Below, in pieces: positions 9,725 through 35,054 of a DNA stretch of 36,007 bases. The DNA lies in the NCBI GenBank assembly GCA_019634275.1, contig JAHQVP010000150.1:1-36007 (forward strand), read 5' to 3'. The notes under the pieces are model-generated. The model made no database searches and was not told the origin of the DNA. It worked only from the letters and a program-made list of their open reading frames with translations. A program made the position numbers and the translations under genes. This DNA comes from Saprospiraceae bacterium (lineage in GTDB: Bacteria; Bacteroidota; Bacteroidia; Chitinophagales; Saprospiraceae). Every line of letters begins with the position of its first letter. Position 1 is the stretch's first letter.

Positions 9725-12700
9725 CTAGTTTCCTTTTAACGAGTTATAGTATTGTTCTACAAGGGCTTTATAGTAGGGCCTCAAAGCAGGAGAGATCGTA
9801 CGAAATGGATCAATCTGTGCTTCACGCTCCTTAATATACGCTTCTACTTCAGGAGGCAATTTTCGTTCCAATTCTTCACTTGATTTAGCTTCGCGCTTTT
9901 CGTCAAATTCTTGTTCTCTTTCTGCCTTTTCATGTTCCAGTAGACGCGTAAGAATATCCTCCTGTCTCTTCAGCATCTCATTGGTTAACCGTTTGTTGAC
10001 CAGATCAGTTTCAATCTTGTCCATTTGTTCTAGAATTTCTTCCAGCTCTTTGGATCCTTTGCCCTGTTGCTGTTTGGCATTCTGAATGTCTCGTAGCGCT
10101 TTTCTTAGGGCAGCCTGCTTAGCAGCCATTTGAGCGAACTCTTTACTGGAACCCTTCCCTTCTTTCATTTCTCCTTCGCCCTGCCCCTCTTTCATCTTTT
10201 GCATCTGCTGGTTAAGACTCTTCTGACCTTCTGAAATCTTATCCGATGGTTTTTGCCCGGGCTTTTGTCCGGGTTTTTGTCCCGGTTTAGTGCACATTTG
10301 ACTACCAGACATCATGCCCGACATTTGCTGTTGCATCTGATTCATAGACTCGCTAAACATAAGCGCAAGATCGTTGACGTTTTTCATGGTTCTTTGCTGA
10401 TGGTTTGACGCATCGCCCTTCTTACGATCTTCCAGTAATTTAAGCCCATCCTTGAGGTGCGTCTTTACCTCGGCCGTTTTTTCGAGCACAAACGACTCTA
10501 TTTCATATACACGCTGACTAAGTGCTTGCAAGCTGTCTTCGATTAAACTAAAATCATCTTTTAGCTTGTATTGGTGCTGAACCAGCTCAGTATACCGTGG
10601 CGTAGATACGCTGGTCTTGTTTATGCTGCCCATTAAGTCTTCTTGGTCAAAGGATAGTGCAACAAGGTTTTCAAGCAGCTGCCTCATTGCCTTCATGTCT
10701 TCTTCCATTTGCTCCATATCCGACTGTTGCATCTGCTGTTCCATTTGCTCAGCCATCTCTTGCATTTGCTCACCTGCCTGTTTTTGTGGTTGACTTGCAT
10801 CTTGAGGTTGTCCCTGCTCAAGCTGCTCCATGCTTTTGTCCAGGTTTTCCTGGATGTCATCCATTTCTTCTGAGGGGCTCTCTAGTTCATTGGGATTGGA
10901 GAGCTCTTCATTGCGCTCCATCAATTCTTCCATCTCCTCCTTAATCTCTTCGAAGGCGTCCTGAATTTCTTGCTGTTCTTGCGTTAGTTGTTCTTGCTCT
11001 TCTTGTGTCTCTGCTTGCTGAGATTCTTCACTAAGTTCCATTTCTTGTTCTCCCAGCTCTTTTAGCTTTTCAAGCTCTTGCTTTAGATCACGCTCAAACT
11101 CAAGCTGCTCGAACAGCTCCTCTAAACGGTCCAGTTCCATTTCGAGTTGCTCCTCACTCATTTCCATATCCTCCATCATTTGGAGGGCATTCTCCTTGTT
11201 GAGCTCTTCCATGAGCTCGCGGATTTTTTCCATTAACTCTTTGGTCTCCTCATCGGCCAACTCTTCGAACATTTCCTGGAGCTTTTCCTGTTTTTCGAGA
11301 ATGTCTTCGCTGACCTGTTCAAATTCTTCCTGGTTTTTTAAGTTCTCCTCAAATTTTTCTTTTGCTTCCTCAATCTCTTTTTCAAGGTCTTCCTGGCGAG
11401 ATAGAAGGTCTTCTAACTCCTTCTTCATTTGCCAATCAACACTTTTTTCTTGAAGCATTTTTTCCCGCAGGGATTTAAATTCCTTCTTGATCTCTGCAGA
11501 TTCTTTCCGTGCCTCCCGAAGGTTTTTCTTTATATCTTCCTCATTGTCGTCTTCAGCTTGTGCAAATTCTTCAATGGTGGGCTTATTGAAAGTGGTGAGC
11601 GTCGACTTAGTGCTCTTTGATCCATTTACGCCATCATTGTCAAAGACTTCAAAATAGTATGTTACTTCATCACCCGGCGCAAGTTCAAGGTCTGCAAGGT
11701 CGAATACGTGATCGAAGGAATTGCGCGAGGCGGACGGTGTCGCCAGATCAGTTGTAGTCAATGCCGTTTTCTCCTCACCGGAATTGGTGATGCGATAATT
11801 AAAGGTCAAGCGCGTCAAACCATAGTCATCTGAAGCGTCTCCCACGGAATAGATTAGTGTTTGTTGAAGGCTATCTACAAATTGCTTGACAGCAATACTC
11901 GGATATAAGTCTGGTACCACGGCGATCGTATAGCCCACAGAGTCGGCATTGGGAAGTTCTTGGTTGCCAAACCGGATCAAATACGGTGTATTGCGATAGA
12001 TGCGGGAGGAGTAGGTAAAGTCATTCGTGCCAATGCGATCAGCAGATATCGCATCCTTGTCACCCAAAGCAAAGGAAATTTCTTCTGTGTGAATGGCCTC
12101 CATGATCCAATCGATCTTGGTGCCTTGAGGCACAACCAAGTCACCAATATTTTCTAGAACCTCATCCTTCCTGCCTGTATATCCAGGATAATCCAGTTCA
12201 GTAACCAAGTCCAGTATGTTTGGTTTTCGTAGGATGTCAAGTTCGTAAGGCGATGAAGAAATCCCCGCTGCTGTGAGTTGGAACTGTAGATCTTCCTGCA
12301 CATTGTTGAAGGTGTACTGATATTTACCGGGAGATTGCTTGCTAAGACGGTATTGAAAGCCGTTAATCTCTATAAATGCTTGATCAGGTAGGGCCTCGCC
12401 TTCTATGGCCACGTCAAGAACGAAGTCATCATATTGAGGGACCTGGAGTGAGGAGTTGAGTACCGCGAAACCAAAAGGAGCTTCCCGCTCAAATTCCACG
12501 TTGTTTTTAATAATGCGAGATGTAGAGTCCTTGATCACACTAGGTGCACCTACCAGTAGTCCCAGTAGGATCAGCAGAGGCGGGAGTGCATATGGCAAGT
12601 AACGCTTGTTCTTACGTAAATCAATGGCATGTTGAAATGGTACCGGTGTGATAGCCGATGTCTTTTTATCGATGCTGGCCATCAACAAGGCTTGATCTGG

Positions 12701-13066
12701 GCTGGCCTCACTTTGCCTTTTCAGCTGGAGAACATTTAGAAGCTTGTCCTGAACATTTTCAAAATGATCGCCAATGATGTCGGCCGCCTTTTCATGGGAT
12801 ATTACCTTCCCCAATCTGAAATAGTGCATCAAAGGGGTGAAAATCCATTGCCACAAGGCTACGGCCGAGATTCCGACAAAGCCAAAGAACATGGCCTTGC
12901 GAACACCTTTTCCAAAGTAAAAGAAGTGTTCTGCCAGTGCAAAAATGAGAAAGGAGAGAACGATCAGTCCCAGGCTATAAAGAGAACCTCGGACCAATTT
13001 ATTGAGATAAAATTTCCTAATGAACCGATCAAGTTTTTCGATCAGAAGCTGATACGTGCTCGCCAT
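9725..13066 (-). CDS. DUF4175 family giant membrane / coiled-coil protein
   Basis: Protein of 1113 residues matching the Bacteroidota DUF4175 type; its function is unknown. Two hydrophobic helices are at about residues 26-48 and 58-78 and a third at about 155-177. A large, probably extracytoplasmic, beta-rich region runs to about 510. It is followed by a very long Glu/Gln/Met/Lys-rich segment (about 520-830) predicted as coiled coil. After that come a short GQKP repeat, another helical segment (about 950-1080) and the C-terminus. The charge bias looks like a scaffold or a protein spanning the envelope. Co-transcription with an RsbW-like ATPase and ybeY is likely because the genes abut. Confidence 0.8.
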   Translation of the reverse strand: MASTYQLLIEKLDRFIRKFYLNKLVRGSLYSLGLIVLSFLIFALAEHFFYFGKGVRKAMFFGFVGISAVALWQWIFTPLMHYFRLGKVISHEKAADIIGDHFENVQDKLLNVLQLKRQSEASPDQALLMASIDKKTSAITPVPFQHAIDLRKNKRYLPYALPPLLILLGLLVGAPSVIKDSTSRIIKNNVEFEREAPFGFAVLNSSLQVPQYDDFVLDVAIEGEALPDQAFIEINGFQYRLSKQSPGKYQYTFNNVQEDLQFQLTAAGISSSPYELDILRKPNILDLVTELDYPGYTGRKDEVLENIGDLVVPQGTKIDWIMEAIHTEEISFALGDKDAISADRIGTNDFTYSSRIYRNTPYLIRFGNQELPNADSVGYTIAVVPDLYPSIAVKQFVDSLQQTLIYSVGDASDDYGLTRLTFNYRITNSGEEKTALTTTDLATPSASRNSFDHVFDLADLELAPGDEVTYYFEVFDNDGVNGSKSTKSTLTTFNKPTIEEFAQAEDDNEEDIKKNLREARKESAEIKKEFKSLREKMLQEKSVDWQMKKELEDLLSRQEDLEKEIEEAKEKFEENLKNQEEFEQVSEDILEKQEKLQEMFEELADEETKELMEKIRELMEELNKENALQMMEDMEMSEEQLEMELDRLEELFEQLEFERDLKQELEKLKELGEQEMELSEESQQAETQEEQEQLTQEQQEIQDAFEEIKEEMEELMERNEELSNPNELESPSEEMDDIQENLDKSMEQLEQGQPQDASQPQKQAGEQMQEMAEQMEQQMQQSDMEQMEEDMKAMRQLLENLVALSFDQEDLMGSINKTSVSTPRYTELVQHQYKLKDDFSLIEDSLQALSQRVYEIESFVLEKTAEVKTHLKDGLKLLEDRKKGDASNHQQRTMKNVNDLALMFSESMNQMQQQMSGMMSGSQMCTKPGQKPGQKPGQKPSDKISEGQKSLNQQMQKMKEGQGEGEMKEGKGSSKEFAQMAAKQAALRKALRDIQNAKQQQGKGSKELEEILEQMDKIETDLVNKRLTNEMLKRQEDILTRLLEHEKAEREQEFDEKREAKSSEELERKLPPEVEAYIKEREAQIDPFRTISPALRPYYKALVEQYYNSLKGN
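10248..10288 (-). repeat. 12-bp tandem repeat encoding GQKP
   Basis: Three tandem 12-base units (10248-10259, 10260-10271, 10272-10283) plus a partial fourth lie inside the DUF4175 gene and encode KPGQKPGQKPGQKP. The units differ at only one to three positions, consistent with recent slippage expansion. Copy number may vary between strains. Confidence 0.75.
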
Positions 13067-24842: not shown

Positions 24843-25915
24843 GTTTGTTTCGATCTGGAAGTAAGCAACAATGCTACCAAGGGATAGTAAAAGAGGTAAA
24901 ATAAATCGAGCAAAGGAATCCATGGCAACAGTGACGAACCATGCAATGGCACTGCAAACCGGTGCATCCCCCAATAGAGTACGATCAAGCGCAGGAAGTA
25001 TAGTGAAAATGCAGCGCCGCACTGAGAAAGAAAAATCAGCAATAGGACTCCGGACAGGTGCATCCAATGACTTGCAGAGAGCATCAATAGGTACCACTGA
25101 TCCCGAAAGTCATACTCATGCGATGTGGCCAAATGCCTTCGGCGCTGATCCCAGACTTCTTTCCAAGTCGATGGCGAAGGACTATATGTGACGGCCATGG
25201 GATCTAGACAAATGCTGATTGCCCCGCGCTTTTTGATCTCATTAATGGCCAGATCATCATCGCCCCCTAGATGTTTGCGATCGTCTTTTTTCAGGGCACC
25301 TCTCATTTCGTCGGTCTCTACAAGTAGATTTCTGCCAACGGCCATGTAAGGTTTTCCTTTCACCGTACGGTAAGCATAACCGAGCGCGATGAGGAGTGCA
25401 TCGTACGCTGCGAACCGGCCTGCTCCGGTAGATCCTCCACGCAGAGGGGAGATGCCAATGCACGCGAGAGCATGCGGCTCCAGGCAGCCGAACATGAGAT
25501 TGGACCATTGGTCGCTGCGAGGAGTACAATCGGCATCCGTAAGCAACACGTATTTCGTGGAGATTTGATCTAAACCAAATTGAAGGGCCTCTTTTTTGCC
25601 ACTAAAAGTGCGGGGAATGCTCCATCGAATCAGTTGATCAAAGCGATTGGCGAGCACGTCAAGAAAATGCGCAGTCCCATCTTCAGATCCGTGATCCACT
25701 ACATGAACGGGCCCCTCGAACTGGGTCAGAATGCCTTCCAAGTTTTGACGTAGGGCATTTTCCATATTGTGAGAACAGATAAGAATGGAGAGTCCTCCAA
25801 TGTCCGCTGGGGCCGAGGCAGTAAGACGTGCCTTGGTTATGCTTGTCATCCACCATACTAGCTGGACTAAGGTTGCCATGCAGGTGACAATTAGAACGGT
25901 TATAGTCAAAGCCAT
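24836..25915 (-). CDS. Family 2 glycosyltransferase, membrane-bound
   Basis: 359-residue protein with an N-terminal membrane helix (about 3-24) and two or three C-terminal helices (about 285-350). The GT-A fold starts LSILICSHNMENALRQNLEG. The nucleotide-sugar DxD-type motif is LLTDADCTP (about 130). The later acidic motif is GGDDDLAINEI, and the acceptor-side motif is a Q-R-R-R-H segment, as in processive-like GT2 enzymes. It probably transfers a sugar to a lipid or polysaccharide on the cytoplasmic face. Donor and acceptor are unknown. Its C-terminus overlaps the rsmG start; a GH5 gene diverges from it. Confidence 0.87.
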   Translation of the reverse strand: MALTITVLIVTCMATLVQLVWWMTSITKARLTASAPADIGGLSILICSHNMENALRQNLEGILTQFEGPVHVVDHGSEDGTAHFLDVLANRFDQLIRWSIPRTFSGKKEALQFGLDQISTKYVLLTDADCTPRSDQWSNLMFGCLEPHALACIGISPLRGGSTGAGRFAAYDALLIALGYAYRTVKGKPYMAVGRNLLVETDEMRGALKKDDRKHLGGDDDLAINEIKKRGAISICLDPMAVTYSPSPSTWKEVWDQRRRHLATSHEYDFRDQWYLLMLSASHWMHLSGVLLLIFLSQCGAAFSLYFLRLIVLYWGMHRFAVPLHGSSLLPWIPLLDLFYLFYYPLVALLLTSRSKQTW

Positions 25916-25950
25916 TGATAGAAAGCCGGTATTTTTACGTTCATATTCGG

Positions 25951-27285
25951 ATGGTGTGGCTTCAATGTAGATATAAAATTTTCATTGCTGCAGCAGTAAT
26001 GTTGTTGGGCACTGATCTCGCATGGGGACAAAGACTTTCCTTAGGCAAAGGAGATACCTATATACATGGGATCAACATTCCCTGGCGCTTCTATGGCAAT
26101 GACTTTGGGAGCACCGGCCAACGTGGTTATGATCCGATATTTTATGATCGACTTTTTGAACGAGTGGCAAACGCCGGACTAAACACCGTGCGCATGTGGA
26201 TCCACTGCGACGGCAGGAATACCCCCAGAAGACATTCTGAGAATTCCATGGCTCCGCCGACACCTCAATTCCTGGAAGATCTCGAATCATTTATTGACTT
26301 GGCCTCAGATCATGGCCTTTTGGTCCTTCCAGTATTATGGACTTTCGAGATGGTGGATGGTCGGGTGCGTCAAGTCCTTTCAGATGACGAATTGCAACAA
26401 TCGTACCTCGATTCATTTTTGAAACCTATGATTGTGAGGTTGGCTGACAAGTGCAATATTCTGGCATGGGAGATTATCAATGAACCAGAGTGGGCAATGG
26501 ACATTCCTTTTGCAGGCACCACGAGAAGAACCGTCGAGCCCCATTTGATGCAGCGATTCGTAGCCAATGTGGCACATGTCATACATGCCCATAGTGATCA
26601 TTGGACCACCGTAGGAAGTGCGGGCATTCGGTTCTCAACCGAGGCGTTTCCCTTGACCACAAACTACTGGTCCGATCAAGCTCTGTTAAGACAAGGGGCC
26701 ACCTGCAAGAGTCCGATTTTGGATTTCTATTCCATCCATTACTATAAATGGAATTTCGAAGCCCTATCTCCATTTGGACACCGAGCCAAAGAACTGCAGC
26801 TGGATAAGCCCATTCTAATCAGCGAATTCGGATTAACAGATGAACACACTGGAACCCTATTGAGTAAGGCACTGATCAATGGATATGCAGGTACCATGCC
26901 TTGGTCTATGATGGCGGGTGACAGTGAAGGTTCCTGGCAAGATTACGAACAAGCTTTGCAGGACTTTGCTCACGAGAAGAAAGTGCTGGTGGAAATGCCT
27001 GAACCGTGTCTCAATGGGAAGAAGACCCCCCTGGGGCAGTGCCATATCTTTCCCAACCCTGCAATGGACCACTTGTCAATAGAGAGTCAAATACATTCCC
27101 AAGTGGAAGTGACCTTGATCGATCTACTTGGCCGAACAGTATTGTCGCGACTTGTGCAGAGCGACGGGACTGATGCTTTGGATCTGGCGGGTATTGCTTC
27201 AGGCACGTACCTCGTACGTTTGGTTGCTCCCGCAGAGCGAAGTCATAGTGTTGGACATCAGACCCTGATTATCCTTGATAGATAA
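25951..27285 (+). CDS. Secreted GH5-like glycoside hydrolase with T9SS sorting domain
   Basis: Secreted glycan hydrolase of 444 residues. A signal peptide is visible (KIFIAAAVMLLGTDLAWGQ). The (beta/alpha)8 domain follows from about residue 35 (HGINIPWRFYG) to 350. The acid/base Glu is in AWEIINEPE (about residue 178) and the nucleophile Glu in ILISEFGLT (about 292), as in clan GH-A, family 5, often mannanase or cellulase. The last 75 residues (CHIFPNPAMDHLSIES ... GIASGTYLVRLV) are a type A T9SS C-terminal domain. The start is the ATG at 25951, since the longer frame begins with TTG inside the divergent promoter region. Confidence 0.88.
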   Translation: MVWLQCRYKIFIAAAVMLLGTDLAWGQRLSLGKGDTYIHGINIPWRFYGNDFGSTGQRGYDPIFYDRLFERVANAGLNTVRMWIHCDGRNTPRRHSENSMAPPTPQFLEDLESFIDLASDHGLLVLPVLWTFEMVDGRVRQVLSDDELQQSYLDSFLKPMIVRLADKCNILAWEIINEPEWAMDIPFAGTTRRTVEPHLMQRFVANVAHVIHAHSDHWTTVGSAGIRFSTEAFPLTTNYWSDQALLRQGATCKSPILDFYSIHYYKWNFEALSPFGHRAKELQLDKPILISEFGLTDEHTGTLLSKALINGYAGTMPWSMMAGDSEGSWQDYEQALQDFAHEKKVLVEMPEPCLNGKKTPLGQCHIFPNPAMDHLSIESQIHSQVEVTLIDLLGRTVLSRLVQSDGTDALDLAGIASGTYLVRLVAPAERSHSVGHQTLIILDR

Positions 27286-31009: not shown

Positions 31010-31315
31010 ATGAGAAAAGCGGACCTGGTAAGTTCGATCTCGGAAAAAACTGGGGTTCCGAAGGTTGATGTACTTGTCACACTCGAGTATTTCTTTACAG
31101 AAGTAAAGGATTCACTAGCCGAGGGCGAGAACGTCTACATCCGAGGCTTTGGTTCTTTTGTAATCAAACGAAGAGCGAAAAAGATAGGGCGACACATCAA
31201 GAAGAACATAGCAATCGAGATTCCAGAGCACTATATACCCTCGTTTAAGCCGGCCAAGATCTTTGTTGATCAGGTTAAGCAAAATGTAAACGAGTTACCC
31301 AACGACGAATCCTAG
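31010..31315 (+). CDS. HU/IHF family DNA-binding protein
   Basis: 101-residue histone-like protein that bends DNA as a dimer. The N-terminal helices start MRKADLVSSISEKTGVP. The dimer core is GENVYIRGFGSFVIKRRAKK, and the DNA-binding arm GRHIKKNIAIEIPEHYIPSFKPAK matches the family's GRNxxTGxxIxIPxxxxPxFKPGK pattern, with Tyr and Ser near the tip. The subfamily (HU versus IHF-like) is not certain. It is followed after three bases by a TPR gene, and the whole block to 35054 is on the same strand. Confidence 0.94.
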   Translation: MRKADLVSSISEKTGVPKVDVLVTLEYFFTEVKDSLAEGENVYIRGFGSFVIKRRAKKIGRHIKKNIAIEIPEHYIPSFKPAKIFVDQVKQNVNELPNDES

Positions 31316-31318
31316 TCT

Positions 31319-32098
31319 ATGAATCGACAGCAGCAGGTCGTGCTTTTATCGGCAGGACTTCTTTTTCTGGTGCTGTATTTGGGATTCGATATCAAATCAC
31401 CCCAACAACTTGATTTGATTGAAACAAGAGCCAAAACAGGTTTATCGCTTGACGTTGGTTCTATTGTAGAAAAGGCCGGGGAAAGCCTCGGATCTGAAAA
31501 GTCTGCCGAACTTGCTTCTCTGGAAGTTAGATACCAGCAAGCAAGTGAATCAGAGCAGACGGAAATATTGAAAGAAATATCAGGTTTTTGGTTCCGTCAA
31601 AAAGAGTACTACTTGGCGGGAGCCTTTGCAAAGCAAGCGGCTGAGAAAGAAGAAAATGATCAGGCTTGGAGCATAGCGGGGACTACCTTTATGAGTGGAC
31701 TTCAAACAGGCCCGGAAGAACAGCAGCGGGCTTGTGGACAACAAGCTGCATTTTGCCTCGAGCAAGCGATAAGCTTAGCACCGGATGACATAAATCACCG
31801 CGTCAATCAGGCATTGATTTATGTCCGACAGCCACCCCAGGAAAATCCTATGAAAGGGATTCAAATGCTTTTGAGATTGAATGAAAAACAGCCAGAAAAT
31901 GTGGTGGTCCTCTTCAATCTGGCTAAACTGGCAGTGGAAACAGGACAATGGGATCGAGCAAAAGAAAGACTCGAATCTGCCGTTGCAATGGAACCTGAAA
32001 ACAAAAGAGTTGTTTGTTTACTAGCAGACGTGCTTGCACAGATGCAAGACCCCAATTGGCAAGCAACCAGAGAGAAATGTGATTTACTAACTGAATAA
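31319..32098 (+). CDS. TPR repeat membrane-anchored protein
   Basis: 259-residue protein with an N-terminal membrane helix (about residues 6-24, VVLLSAGLLFLVLYLGF). A helical region (about 45-105) and TPR-like repeats follow in the rest: FWFRQKEYYLAGAFAKQAA, CLEQAISLAPDDINHRVNQA, LFNLAKLAVETGQWDRAKER and LESAVAMEPENKRVVCLLA. The topology suggests periplasmic TPRs. Such proteins act as protein-binding scaffolds; its partner is unknown. Its position between HU and RNase G appears to be a recurring Bacteroidota arrangement, which I state from memory. Confidence 0.8.
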   Translation: MNRQQQVVLLSAGLLFLVLYLGFDIKSPQQLDLIETRAKTGLSLDVGSIVEKAGESLGSEKSAELASLEVRYQQASESEQTEILKEISGFWFRQKEYYLAGAFAKQAAEKEENDQAWSIAGTTFMSGLQTGPEEQQRACGQQAAFCLEQAISLAPDDINHRVNQALIYVRQPPQENPMKGIQMLLRLNEKQPENVVVLFNLAKLAVETGQWDRAKERLESAVAMEPENKRVVCLLADVLAQMQDPNWQATREKCDLLTE

Positions 32099-32108
32099 GC
32101 ATTAAAAG

Positions 32109-32204
32109 ATGCCTTGCGGTAAAAAAAGAAAAAGACACAAAATTGCGACTCATAAGCGCAAAAAGCGTTTGAGGAAAAACAGACATAAGAAGAAGAACAG
32201 GTAA
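32109..32204 (+). CDS. 31-residue Lys/Arg/His-rich protein, possible ribosomal or RNA-binding protein
   Basis: Very short gene of 31 codons from ATG to TAA. It starts MPCGKKRKRHKIATHKRKK, and of its 31 residues 11 are Lys, 7 Arg and 3 His. The rest is almost only small or polar residues. Very similar tiny basic proteins are, to my recollection, conserved across Bacteroidota in front of RNase G. Such composition is typical of small ribosomal proteins that thread into rRNA. Whether it corresponds to a described ribosomal protein cannot be settled here. It begins 10 bases after the TPR gene stop. Confidence 0.75.
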   Translation: MPCGKKRKRHKIATHKRKKRLRKNRHKKKNR

Positions 32205-32462
32205 ACTGTACCCCTTTTATTTTATAGGACAGGTACCTGTTTATTGTTTTTAGGCTTGCTGTGCCGTCTATCCTTGCATGCCAACCGATCGCACATTTAG
32301 ACATCCCGTAATTGCTAGTTGCAATTAGCTAGATGCAAAGGATATCTTAGATAGGACAGCTTTAGAAGCCCTGGATCGAGTTCTTCGTTCCAAGCGATAT
32401 GTCTCATTTGGAGGCTATTATTCTCCGTCATCTGGCAATGCAGGTACCACAGTAGTTATACA
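32205..32462 (+). promoter_or_regulatory. Leader region upstream of RNase G
   Basis: 258 non-coding bases. A short palindrome ACAGGTACCTGT at 32229-32240, followed by TTTATTGTTTTT, could form a weak terminator. A weak stem-loop with CTAG arms is at about 32312-32337. CAGGTACC from the palindrome recurs at 32441-32448, just before the GTG start. No TAnnTTTG element is seen. RNase E/G genes elsewhere are autoregulated through their 5' leaders, which may be relevant here. Confidence 0.3.
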
Positions 32463-34013
32463 GTGGATAAAGAATTAATCATTAATTCCACTCCTACAGA
32501 AGTTGAAATTGCTCTATCAGAAGACTCTAAACTCGTAGAGCTTCATACGCAAAAGACAAATTCTAAGTTTTCAGTAGGAGATATTTTCTTAGGGCAAATC
32601 AAGAAATTGATGCCTGGACTCAATGCGGCTTTCGTAGACATTGGGCATTCTAAAGATGCCTTTTTGCACTATACTGATCTCGGACCAAAGCTGCCCTCCT
32701 TGCAGAAGTTTACCAAGCGAGCCATAAGCGGCGGCAGCACTGATCATGGTCTCGGAGACTTTGATCTAAGGGACGAAATCGTCAAGACGGGAAAGATTGA
32801 TCAAGTACTCAGTAAAAAGCAGAGCATTCTTGTACAGATCCTCAAGGAACCGATCTCAACAAAGGGTCCAAGGCTAAGTTGTGAAATCACTTTGCCAGGA
32901 AGATTTTTGGTGTTGACGCCTTTTTCAACGATTGTCTCCGTCTCTAAGAAAGTGGGTTCAAGTGAGGAGCGCAAAAGGCTTAAGCGACTGATCGAAAGTA
33001 TTCGCCCCAAAAATTTTGGTGTCATTGTAAGAACTGCGGCAGAGGGAAAAAATGCGGCTACTTTGCACGAAGAATTGCGGGATCTGGAGGAGAAGTGGAA
33101 AAGAATCCATTCTCAGTTACAGAAGAGCGAACCGCCCATGAAACTCCTGAGTGAGTTGGACAAGACCTCCAGCATGTTGCGTGATATGTTGACGGATGAC
33201 TTCAATAACATCGTGGTCAATGACCGTGATATGTATGAGTCCATCCAACAGTATCTGGCTTCCAATGTACCGGAAAAGAAGAAGATCGTGCACCTGCACC
33301 GATCCAGGCGCCCTCTGTTTGACAGCCATGGCATCACACGACAAATAAAGGCATCGTTTGGTAAAACCTATACAATGCCCAGTGGGGCATACATCGTGAT
33401 CGAACATACGGAAGCGATGCACGTCATCGATGTCAATAGTGGTCCCAAGATGGCCCGTCGCAAGCAAGATGAAGCGGTGCTGAACGTTAACCTCGAGACA
33501 GCAGAGGAGATCGCCCGGCAACTGCGCCTACGTGACATCGGCGGCTTGATCATCGTTGACTTTATTGACATGAAGTCATCAGAACACAAGCGCTTGCTGG
33601 TGCATAAGATGCGAGAGTTTATGCGCAATGACCGAGCGCAACACACGGTATTGCCCTTGTCCAAATTCGGCCTCATGCAAATCACGAGACAACGTGTGAG
33701 ACCCGAAGTGAAAATCAATACTGCCGAAGCTTGCCCCACCTGTAATGGCTCTGGAAAGATTAACGCGACCATCCTGATTCCTGATTTGATAGAGAGAGAT
33801 TTGGAATATGTTTTGCAAAATCGGCCAAACGTCAAAATTTCTCTTCAAGTCCACCCCTATATTCATTCCTACCTAACGCGAGACTGGCGCAAGGTGCAGC
33901 GTGGCTGGTATCGGCAATACCGCAAATGGATTCGCATTTATCCAAACAACGACTTCTTTATCAATGCCTACAAATTTTTTGACGGCAGAGAGGACGAGAT
34001 CAGACTTAACTAA
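32463..34013 (+). CDS. rng: Ribonuclease G/E family endoribonuclease
   Basis: 516-residue single-strand endoribonuclease for rRNA processing and mRNA decay. It starts at a GTG: the resulting N-terminus MDKELIINSTPTEVEIAL aligns with the family, and no ATG fits. An S1 domain occupies about residues 36-130 (VGDIFLGQIKKLMPGLNAAF). Catalytic Asp residues are in MHVIDVNSG and IGGLIIVDFIDM, and the Zn-link dimerisation motif is CPTCNGSGK. There is no RNase E-type C-terminal scaffold, so it is the short RNase G form. It is followed without a gap by a glycosyltransferase gene. Confidence 0.93.
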   Translation: MDKELIINSTPTEVEIALSEDSKLVELHTQKTNSKFSVGDIFLGQIKKLMPGLNAAFVDIGHSKDAFLHYTDLGPKLPSLQKFTKRAISGGSTDHGLGDFDLRDEIVKTGKIDQVLSKKQSILVQILKEPISTKGPRLSCEITLPGRFLVLTPFSTIVSVSKKVGSSEERKRLKRLIESIRPKNFGVIVRTAAEGKNAATLHEELRDLEEKWKRIHSQLQKSEPPMKLLSELDKTSSMLRDMLTDDFNNIVVNDRDMYESIQQYLASNVPEKKKIVHLHRSRRPLFDSHGITRQIKASFGKTYTMPSGAYIVIEHTEAMHVIDVNSGPKMARRKQDEAVLNVNLETAEEIARQLRLRDIGGLIIVDFIDMKSSEHKRLLVHKMREFMRNDRAQHTVLPLSKFGLMQITRQRVRPEVKINTAEACPTCNGSGKINATILIPDLIERDLEYVLQNRPNVKISLQVHPYIHSYLTRDWRKVQRGWYRQYRKWIRIYPNNDFFINAYKFFDGREDEIRLN

Positions 34014-35054
34014 ATGCGACGCGTCCTTGTAGCACCGCTCAATTGGGGGCTGGGTCATGCTACCAGGTGCATTCCTTTGATTCGACACATGATCACACAG
34101 GGTCATGAAGTCGTTCTTGCCTCAGACGGACGTGCCGGAGCATTATTGCAGCAGGAATTTCCCGAATGTCCCTACTATGAACTTCCAGGCTACGATGTGA
34201 CCTATCCTCAAGAGCACATGCTGCTCTATTGGTTAAGGAGGATCCCTCACTTATATCAGCGTATTCAGGCAGAAAATGATGCACTGCAGGAGATTGCATC
34301 CGTTGCAAAAATTGACCGCGTTATCTCTGATAACCGATATGGAATCTGGCACCGATCCATTCGATCTATCATTTTGACTCATCAACTGACCATCCCGATT
34401 CCCAGAATGAGATCCTTTACTGCCCCAGTGCTCGCAAGGCTGATAAACAAGTTTCAGACATGTTGGGTCCCCGACGCTGCTCCACCTCATGACCTTACCG
34501 GCACCCTGTCAGCGAATAGATTTATAAAGATCCCAGTACAAAGGATTGGTAGACTCAGTAGATTCAAGTGTCATGCCCGTAAGGAAGACATATACTGTAC
34601 AGCAGTTGTTTCCGGCCCCGAGCCCGATCGGAGCCGATTTGAGCAACTCCTGAGACAGCACCTGCAGTCACTGAGCGCACCGACGTATCTGGTCAGCGGT
34701 CGCATCTCTGGTGGACGGAACAGCTCGAATAGCCAAAGTCAATTGACTACGCTCCATTCGCCAACTGCTGATGAGTTGGAGTCGATACTCAGCCGGTCAA
34801 AATTTGTCGTCTGTCGCTCGGGTTATTCTTCGATTATGGACCTTCTTGCCTTAACAAAACCTGCCATTTTGGTGCCGACACCTCGTCAACCAGAGCAATT
34901 ATACCTGGCAGCACAACTGAAGCATCATCAGTTGTTCGACATTCAAAGCGAAGAGACACTCAACCTCAAGACTTTTAAAATGGAGGGGAGAATAATTGAA
35001 CCCGACAAGGAAGTACTGGACTTCAAGCCCCATTTGAGTGCATTCCTAGACTGA
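34014..35054 (+). CDS. MurG-like (GT28-type) glycosyltransferase
   Basis: 346-residue GT-B fold enzyme. The N-terminal donor/acceptor motif is NWGLGHATRCIPLIRHM, typical of glycosyltransferases related to MurG and the UDP-glucuronosyl type. The C-terminal nucleotide-sugar part has VVCRSGYSSIMDLLALTKPAILVPTPRQPEQ, i.e. the CRSGYSSIMDL and ILVPTPRQPEQ segments seen in GT28 enzymes. True MurG is usually in the dcw cluster, so this is a paralogue of unknown substrate. Its ATG directly follows the rng stop (TAAATG), and its 3' end converges on pth. Confidence 0.82.
   Translation: MRRVLVAPLNWGLGHATRCIPLIRHMITQGHEVVLASDGRAGALLQQEFPECPYYELPGYDVTYPQEHMLLYWLRRIPHLYQRIQAENDALQEIASVAKIDRVISDNRYGIWHRSIRSIILTHQLTIPIPRMRSFTAPVLARLINKFQTCWVPDAAPPHDLTGTLSANRFIKIPVQRIGRLSRFKCHARKEDIYCTAVVSGPEPDRSRFEQLLRQHLQSLSAPTYLVSGRISGGRNSSNSQSQLTTLHSPTADELESILSRSKFVVCRSGYSSIMDLLALTKPAILVPTPRQPEQLYLAAQLKHHQLFDIQSEETLNLKTFKMEGRIIEPDKEVLDFKPHLSAFLD

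Follow-up and report, generated by a model that had tools for sequence, protein, structure and literature searches.

A 31-codon gene upstream of rng in a Saprospiraceae bacterium very probably encodes the 30S ribosomal protein bS22

We report that a 31-codon open reading frame (ORF) in front of the RNase G gene of a Saprospiraceae bacterium encodes, with a probability that we put at about 0.96, the ribosomal protein bS22 of the Bacteroidota/spirochaete type. This is an already known and ordinary protein, easily missed in annotation. The gene and its neighbours are listed in Table 1; "the window" refers to the whole stretch of 36,007 nucleotides that was analysed. The original prediction had seen here a ribosome- or RNA-bound peptide and had thought of bL38, a Bacteroidota ribosomal protein reported in Flavobacterium. 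Its reading as a real, conserved and ribosome-bound protein holds, while bL38 was the wrong candidate, the ORF being bS22, a protein of the 30S subunit.

Table 1. Features of the window around the bS22 gene
Feature	Position	Strand	Description	Evidence
HU/IHF-family DNA-binding protein gene	31010..31315	+		PF00216 E 6e-25
TPR protein gene	31319..32098	+	between HU and bS22	TPR_17 E 2.2e-9, TPR_19 E 2.9e-9
bS22 gene	32109..32204	+	31 aa, very probably 30S ribosomal protein	PDB matches, conservation, codon changes
bS22-rng spacer	32205..32462	+	258 nt, no conserved RNA element found	
rng	32463..34013	+	ribonuclease E/G family (RNase G type)	PF10150 E 2.9e-99; TIGR00757 E 3.2e-134, above cut-off

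A PDB sequence search with the ORF returned three matches only, which link it by homology to what has been modelled as bS22 in 70S ribosomes: 7jil_5 from Flavobacterium johnsoniae, 30 residues long (E 1.4e-9, 25/29 identical), 9i5v_10, named AURKAIP1/COX24 domain-containing protein (E 2.1e-9, 26/29 identical), and 8fmw_V, the Borrelia bS22 (E 2.1e-7, 22/28 identical). We take 7jil to be the F. johnsoniae 70S entry, in agreement with the papers; in the comparison with the small proteins of this ribosome, proposed with the original prediction, the ORF matches its chain 5. Scores of the ORF against the F. johnsoniae and Borrelia chains exceeded those of all 2000 peptide shuffles. A profile search added no independent support, as 7jil_5, 9i5v_10 and 8fmw_V were themselves inside the profile. 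The protein also has the size and shape of the bS22 type (about 28-33 aa, more than half basic, helical), with 31 residues, 21 of them Lys, Arg or His, and a predicted helix: AlphaFold, run on the single sequence, gave one helix over residues 5-29 with a mean pLDDT of 90.6. Pfam and NCBIfam models returned 0 families at E <= 10 for this short and biased sequence, which fits the earlier remark that such genes escape annotation; passages of the Borrelia ribosome paper make the same remark on bS22 (PMC10618245). Some records name bS22 "AURKAIP1/COX24 domain-containing protein".

The ORF runs from an ATG at 32109 to a TAA at 32202-32204 and encodes MPCGKKRKRHKIATHKRKKRLRKNRHKKKNR, with 11 Lys, 7 Arg and 3 His; coordinates and composition are exactly as first described. 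No other of the 440 window ORFs of at least 25 aa is as rich in K/R/H (fraction 0.68, the next being 0.38). Being short and simple in composition, it could be suspected of having arisen by chance within an A-rich stretch, but this is vanishingly improbable: none of 34,522 null ORFs from 60 dinucleotide-Markov windows reached 21/31 K/R/H, the protein is conserved near-perfectly, and codon changes are mostly synonymous. Extreme basic composition and conservation together show that the gene is real, conservation being the stronger proof. An overlapping antisense ORF (31861-32304) was unsupported, the antisense frames being broken inside the gene in 40, 101 and 73 of 147 relatives.

Conservation among relatives, which the original prediction had made decisive, is indeed high. 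Of 40 genomes of relatives, a set that includes the window's own, 39 encode an identical or near-identical protein, and the sole miss was a genome 57% complete. Of 148 genomes drawn from across the phylum, 147 carried bS22, with a single match each (E <= 0.01), so that the gene is near-universal and single-copy in the phylum. Compared with the window over codons 2-28, a set of 147 related loci showed 2037 synonymous and 221 non-synonymous changes, while an equal number of random codon changes is expected to give 297 and 1944; these loci, like the named loci considered below, are not independent (several are near relatives and some genomes are possibly present twice), which touches the counts but leaves their direction beyond doubt. 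The codon count excludes a weak second match of one genome (L045, in G014), which has no such ORF. At 63 of the 147 loci there were zero residue changes and a median of 14 synonymous ones. The ORF is a real gene under strong purifying selection.

One genome of high quality (G186, 99% complete, 2 contigs) gave no bS22 match even at E 10 and is a possible natural loss; the gene is thus not indispensable everywhere, or it has diverged in this genome. We found no phage-borne bS22 among viral_contigs, where 93 pattern matches left 0 confirmed, nor among 50,697 phage records.

The closest comparison is with F. johnsoniae bS22 (7jil chain 5, with the identical sequence in 9oz9, 9ozn, 9ozz and 9p0e). 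At 30 aa it belongs to the same length class, and beyond the 25/29 shared residues the two are set apart by the substitutions C3S, I12V, L21A and K23A and by a different C-terminal end in the window protein. In the Flavobacterium loci HU and rng are likewise neighbours of bS22, but HU stands directly before it, leaving no room for the TPR gene of the window. The more distant Borrelia burgdorferi protein (8fmw chain V) begins, according to passages of PMC10618245, with a GUG start, unlike the ATG found here, and in the spirochaete loci examined bS22 adjoins neither HU nor rng.

Kinship with the actinobacterial proteins is another matter. The best ungapped register against Mycobacterium bS22 had 8/31 identities, and the local score against actinobacterial bS22 (45) was not above that of shuffled sequences (mean 39.5, p 0.17), so that a link to Mycobacterium bS22 from sequence only is not significant. 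As the similarity does not rise above shuffles, we file the window protein as Bacteroidota/spirochaete-type bS22. Passages of PMC10085706 report 37% identity and a structural overlay between the Cutibacterium acnes and F. johnsoniae proteins, and those of PMC10618245, PMC10085706 and PMC6582356 place actinobacterial bS22 (Mycobacterium, Cutibacterium) and mS38/AURKAIP1/Cox24 reportedly in the same rRNA pocket, again as a basic helix, the mitochondrial mS38 being longer than the window protein (PMC10618245). A common origin of these proteins and the window protein would rest on such published overlays.

The C. acnes protein also raises the idea that, besides its ribosomal role, the peptide might act free, as an antimicrobial or inhibitor of translation, since C. 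acnes bS22 inhibited the growth of E. coli, S. epidermidis and S. aureus as well as cell-free translation (passages of PMC10085706). In those experiments, however, the peptide was added, at 80 uM in the cell-free test (PMC10085706). Other basic helices may act alike, the C. acnes protein is only distantly similar to the window ORF, and no secretion signal was seen in the 31 residues. We consider such an activity unlikely in our organism.

The assignment to bS22 has to be held against bL38, a 50S protein of Bacteroidota. What speaks for bL38 is a name: of the five PDB entries with the matching 30-residue sequence, one or more call it "50S ribosomal protein L38". Yet the L38 chain of 7jil is chain 4, a separate 50-residue DUF4295 protein, while the ORF matches chain 5; against the DUF4295 homologue of an in-class genome (L034) the ORF scores 18, with a shuffled mean of 18.7. 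That homologue itself matches chain 4 with E 3.7e-23, so that the ORF lacks a homology to 7jil chain 4 and DUF4295 that a true relative displays. PMC10618245 treats bS22 and bL38, in the passages concerned, as different proteins at different sites, bL38 sitting at H95 near uL6 and uL14. Both are small Bacteroidota ribosomal proteins present in the same structure, but bL38 has 50 aa, belongs to the 50S subunit and is reported in the same passages to contain beta strands, and it has no sequence similarity to the ORF. The match to chain 5, together with the lack of DUF4295 similarity and of any Pfam match, refutes the bL38 identity, which we regard as extremely improbable.

Across five PDB entries the 30-residue bS22 sequence bears both S22 and L38 names, a label that may mislead, and 7jil chain 4 bears the name L38 alone. 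DUF4295 gave no match in the window's own genome, an assembly 89.8% complete. With the protein of a same-family genome as bL38 query, only a weak match with an internal stop (E 0.176) was obtained there; this query matched 9i5t_15 at 1e-6 and 7jil_4 only at 0.024. PMC9976891 mentions neither bS22 nor bL38.

The site of bS22 has been described in solved ribosomes. In the passages of PMC10618245 consulted, its pocket in 16S rRNA is formed by h2/h27/h44/h45 in F. johnsoniae, Borrelia and Mycobacterium, and bS22 contacts H68 of 23S rRNA. Published structures show this pocket to lie near the decoding centre and the protein to reach 23S rRNA (H67/H68) on subunit joining. The basic helix, bent in both bS22 and mS38, lies deep between h27, h44 and h45 and makes an extra intersubunit contact (passages of PMC10618245 and PMC10085706), and yeast mS38 steadies the upper part of h44 and helps in the assembly of the mitoribosome and in initiation (passages of PMC6582356). 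From the near-identity with the F. johnsoniae chain we infer the same role in this organism: as a basic helix, window bS22 would neutralise and fix the h2/h27/h44/h45 rRNA junction, steady the upper part of h44 and add an intersubunit contact.

We also looked at the genes around bS22. In the window, 10 nt separate the stop of the TPR gene from the bS22 start, and 258 nt separate the bS22 end from the GTG start used for RNase G. The TPR gene stood upstream of bS22 in 31 of 36 testable order-level loci (tblastn), and in the phylum sample HU stood upstream in 35/36 in-class and 22/32 out-of-class loci. On the downstream side, rng followed bS22 on the same strand in 36/36 in-class genomes sampled, the window's own excluded (8 + 28), and in 0/31 testable out-of-class loci (20 + 11); the out-of-class count comes from 32 of 110 genomes with a match, 31 of them testable, and 21 of the 32 are the best-scoring ones. 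All 12 out-of-class genomes searched have an RNase E/G gene elsewhere. Since, in these samples, HU lies upstream outside the class as well and the rng pairing occurs inside it only, HU is the most widely kept and older neighbour, and the bS22-rng pairing marks the class. The order HU, (TPR), bS22, rng (31010-34013 in the window, loci L155-L183) recurs in almost every in-class genome of the sample.

At order level, where 38 loci were examined, rng follows bS22 on the same strand in 36 of the 37 with enough sequence. The exception (L027) has rng 1935 nt downstream on a longer sequence (L174 238-2173, G016:C124, minus strand), the longest spacing seen. The named loci are the best 80 out of 221 confirmed ones; 75 of them were testable, and 57 of these have rng downstream of bS22. 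The 18 rng-less loci of these best 80 of 221 are labelled Spirochaetes/Treponema (7), Marinimicrobia (5) and, with 1 each, Chlorobiota, Rhodothermia, UBP2, FCB group, unspecified Bacteroidota and an Armatimonadetes metagenome-assembled genome (MAG). As assigned by reading ORFs, bS22 is flanked in Marinimicrobia by HU on one side and an XseA-like gene on the other; in two Treponema/Spirochaetaceae loci (L134, L143) the flanking genes are MiaA-like and Dxs-like. The position before rng had been taken as a hint of a ribosomal role; given these other neighbours outside the class, adjacency to rng is in itself no argument for it.

Several observations stand beside this. Of 72 testable named loci (best 80 of 221), only 6 have the glycosyltransferase that stands behind rng in the window (34014-35054). 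Two sequences labelled as other phyla, Armatimonadetes (L075, JADZEY010000010.1) and SAR202 (L130, VFGW01000013.1), carry a Bacteroidota-type bS22: the former has the same zinc-ribbon/TPR and aminotransferase-like neighbours as a Chlorobiota locus (L086), the latter has HU and rng beside bS22, as in Flavobacteriales. Both are probably mislabelled or mixed MAGs. Elsewhere in the window we noticed a cellulase/GH5-like protein that carries a sorting tail of the Por secretion system (25915-27285; PF00150, PF18962) and a DUF4175 protein of 1113 aa whose long middle part is rich in Glu, Gln and Met (9725-13066).

The constant place of rng downstream, on the same strand, in all 36 in-class genomes could also mean that the ORF is a leader peptide acting in cis to control rng, for instance through ribosomes that stall on the basic run; the distance to rng may be large, the 104 spacers ranging from 44 to 1103 nt with a median of 205.5. 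We consider such a leader role very unlikely, because the peptide is kept where no rng adjoins it (0/31 out-of-class loci; Treponema, Marinimicrobia); moreover, its relatives are ribosome components in structures and the spacer lacks conserved structure. Against the 103 other spacers, that of the window gave one weak match (L122, E 0.005) and nothing else below E 0.2; its fold z-score of -1.12 is not unusual, and Rfam returned no match. A structured RNA in the spacer was rejected on these three results. Promoter and terminator scans found no more than in shuffles. Leader and ribosomal roles are, for their part, not mutually exclusive.

The pairing of bS22 with rng in the class may exist because both products serve the maturation of the 30S subunit. 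RNase G of E. coli makes the mature 5' end of 16S rRNA (passages of PMC3985665), and bS22 touches h2 near that end, which makes a joint role attractive. Taken further, the two genes might form a 30S maturation unit, in which RNase G would trim the 16S 5' end, bS22 would lock the h2 pocket beside it, and joint expression, or surplus bS22 binding the shared mRNA, would balance both; we hold this full scheme to be doubtful, though less so than the alternatives weighed above. The pairing is not mentioned in the passages of PMC10618245, PMC10085706, PMC6582356 and PMC3985665 consulted, and we do not claim it as unpublished.

In conclusion, a ribosomal gene that easily escapes annotation is identified and bS22 is separated from bL38, with a warning that the PDB label mixes the two. 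The class-wide pairing of bS22 with rng offers a small, testable lead on small-subunit maturation.
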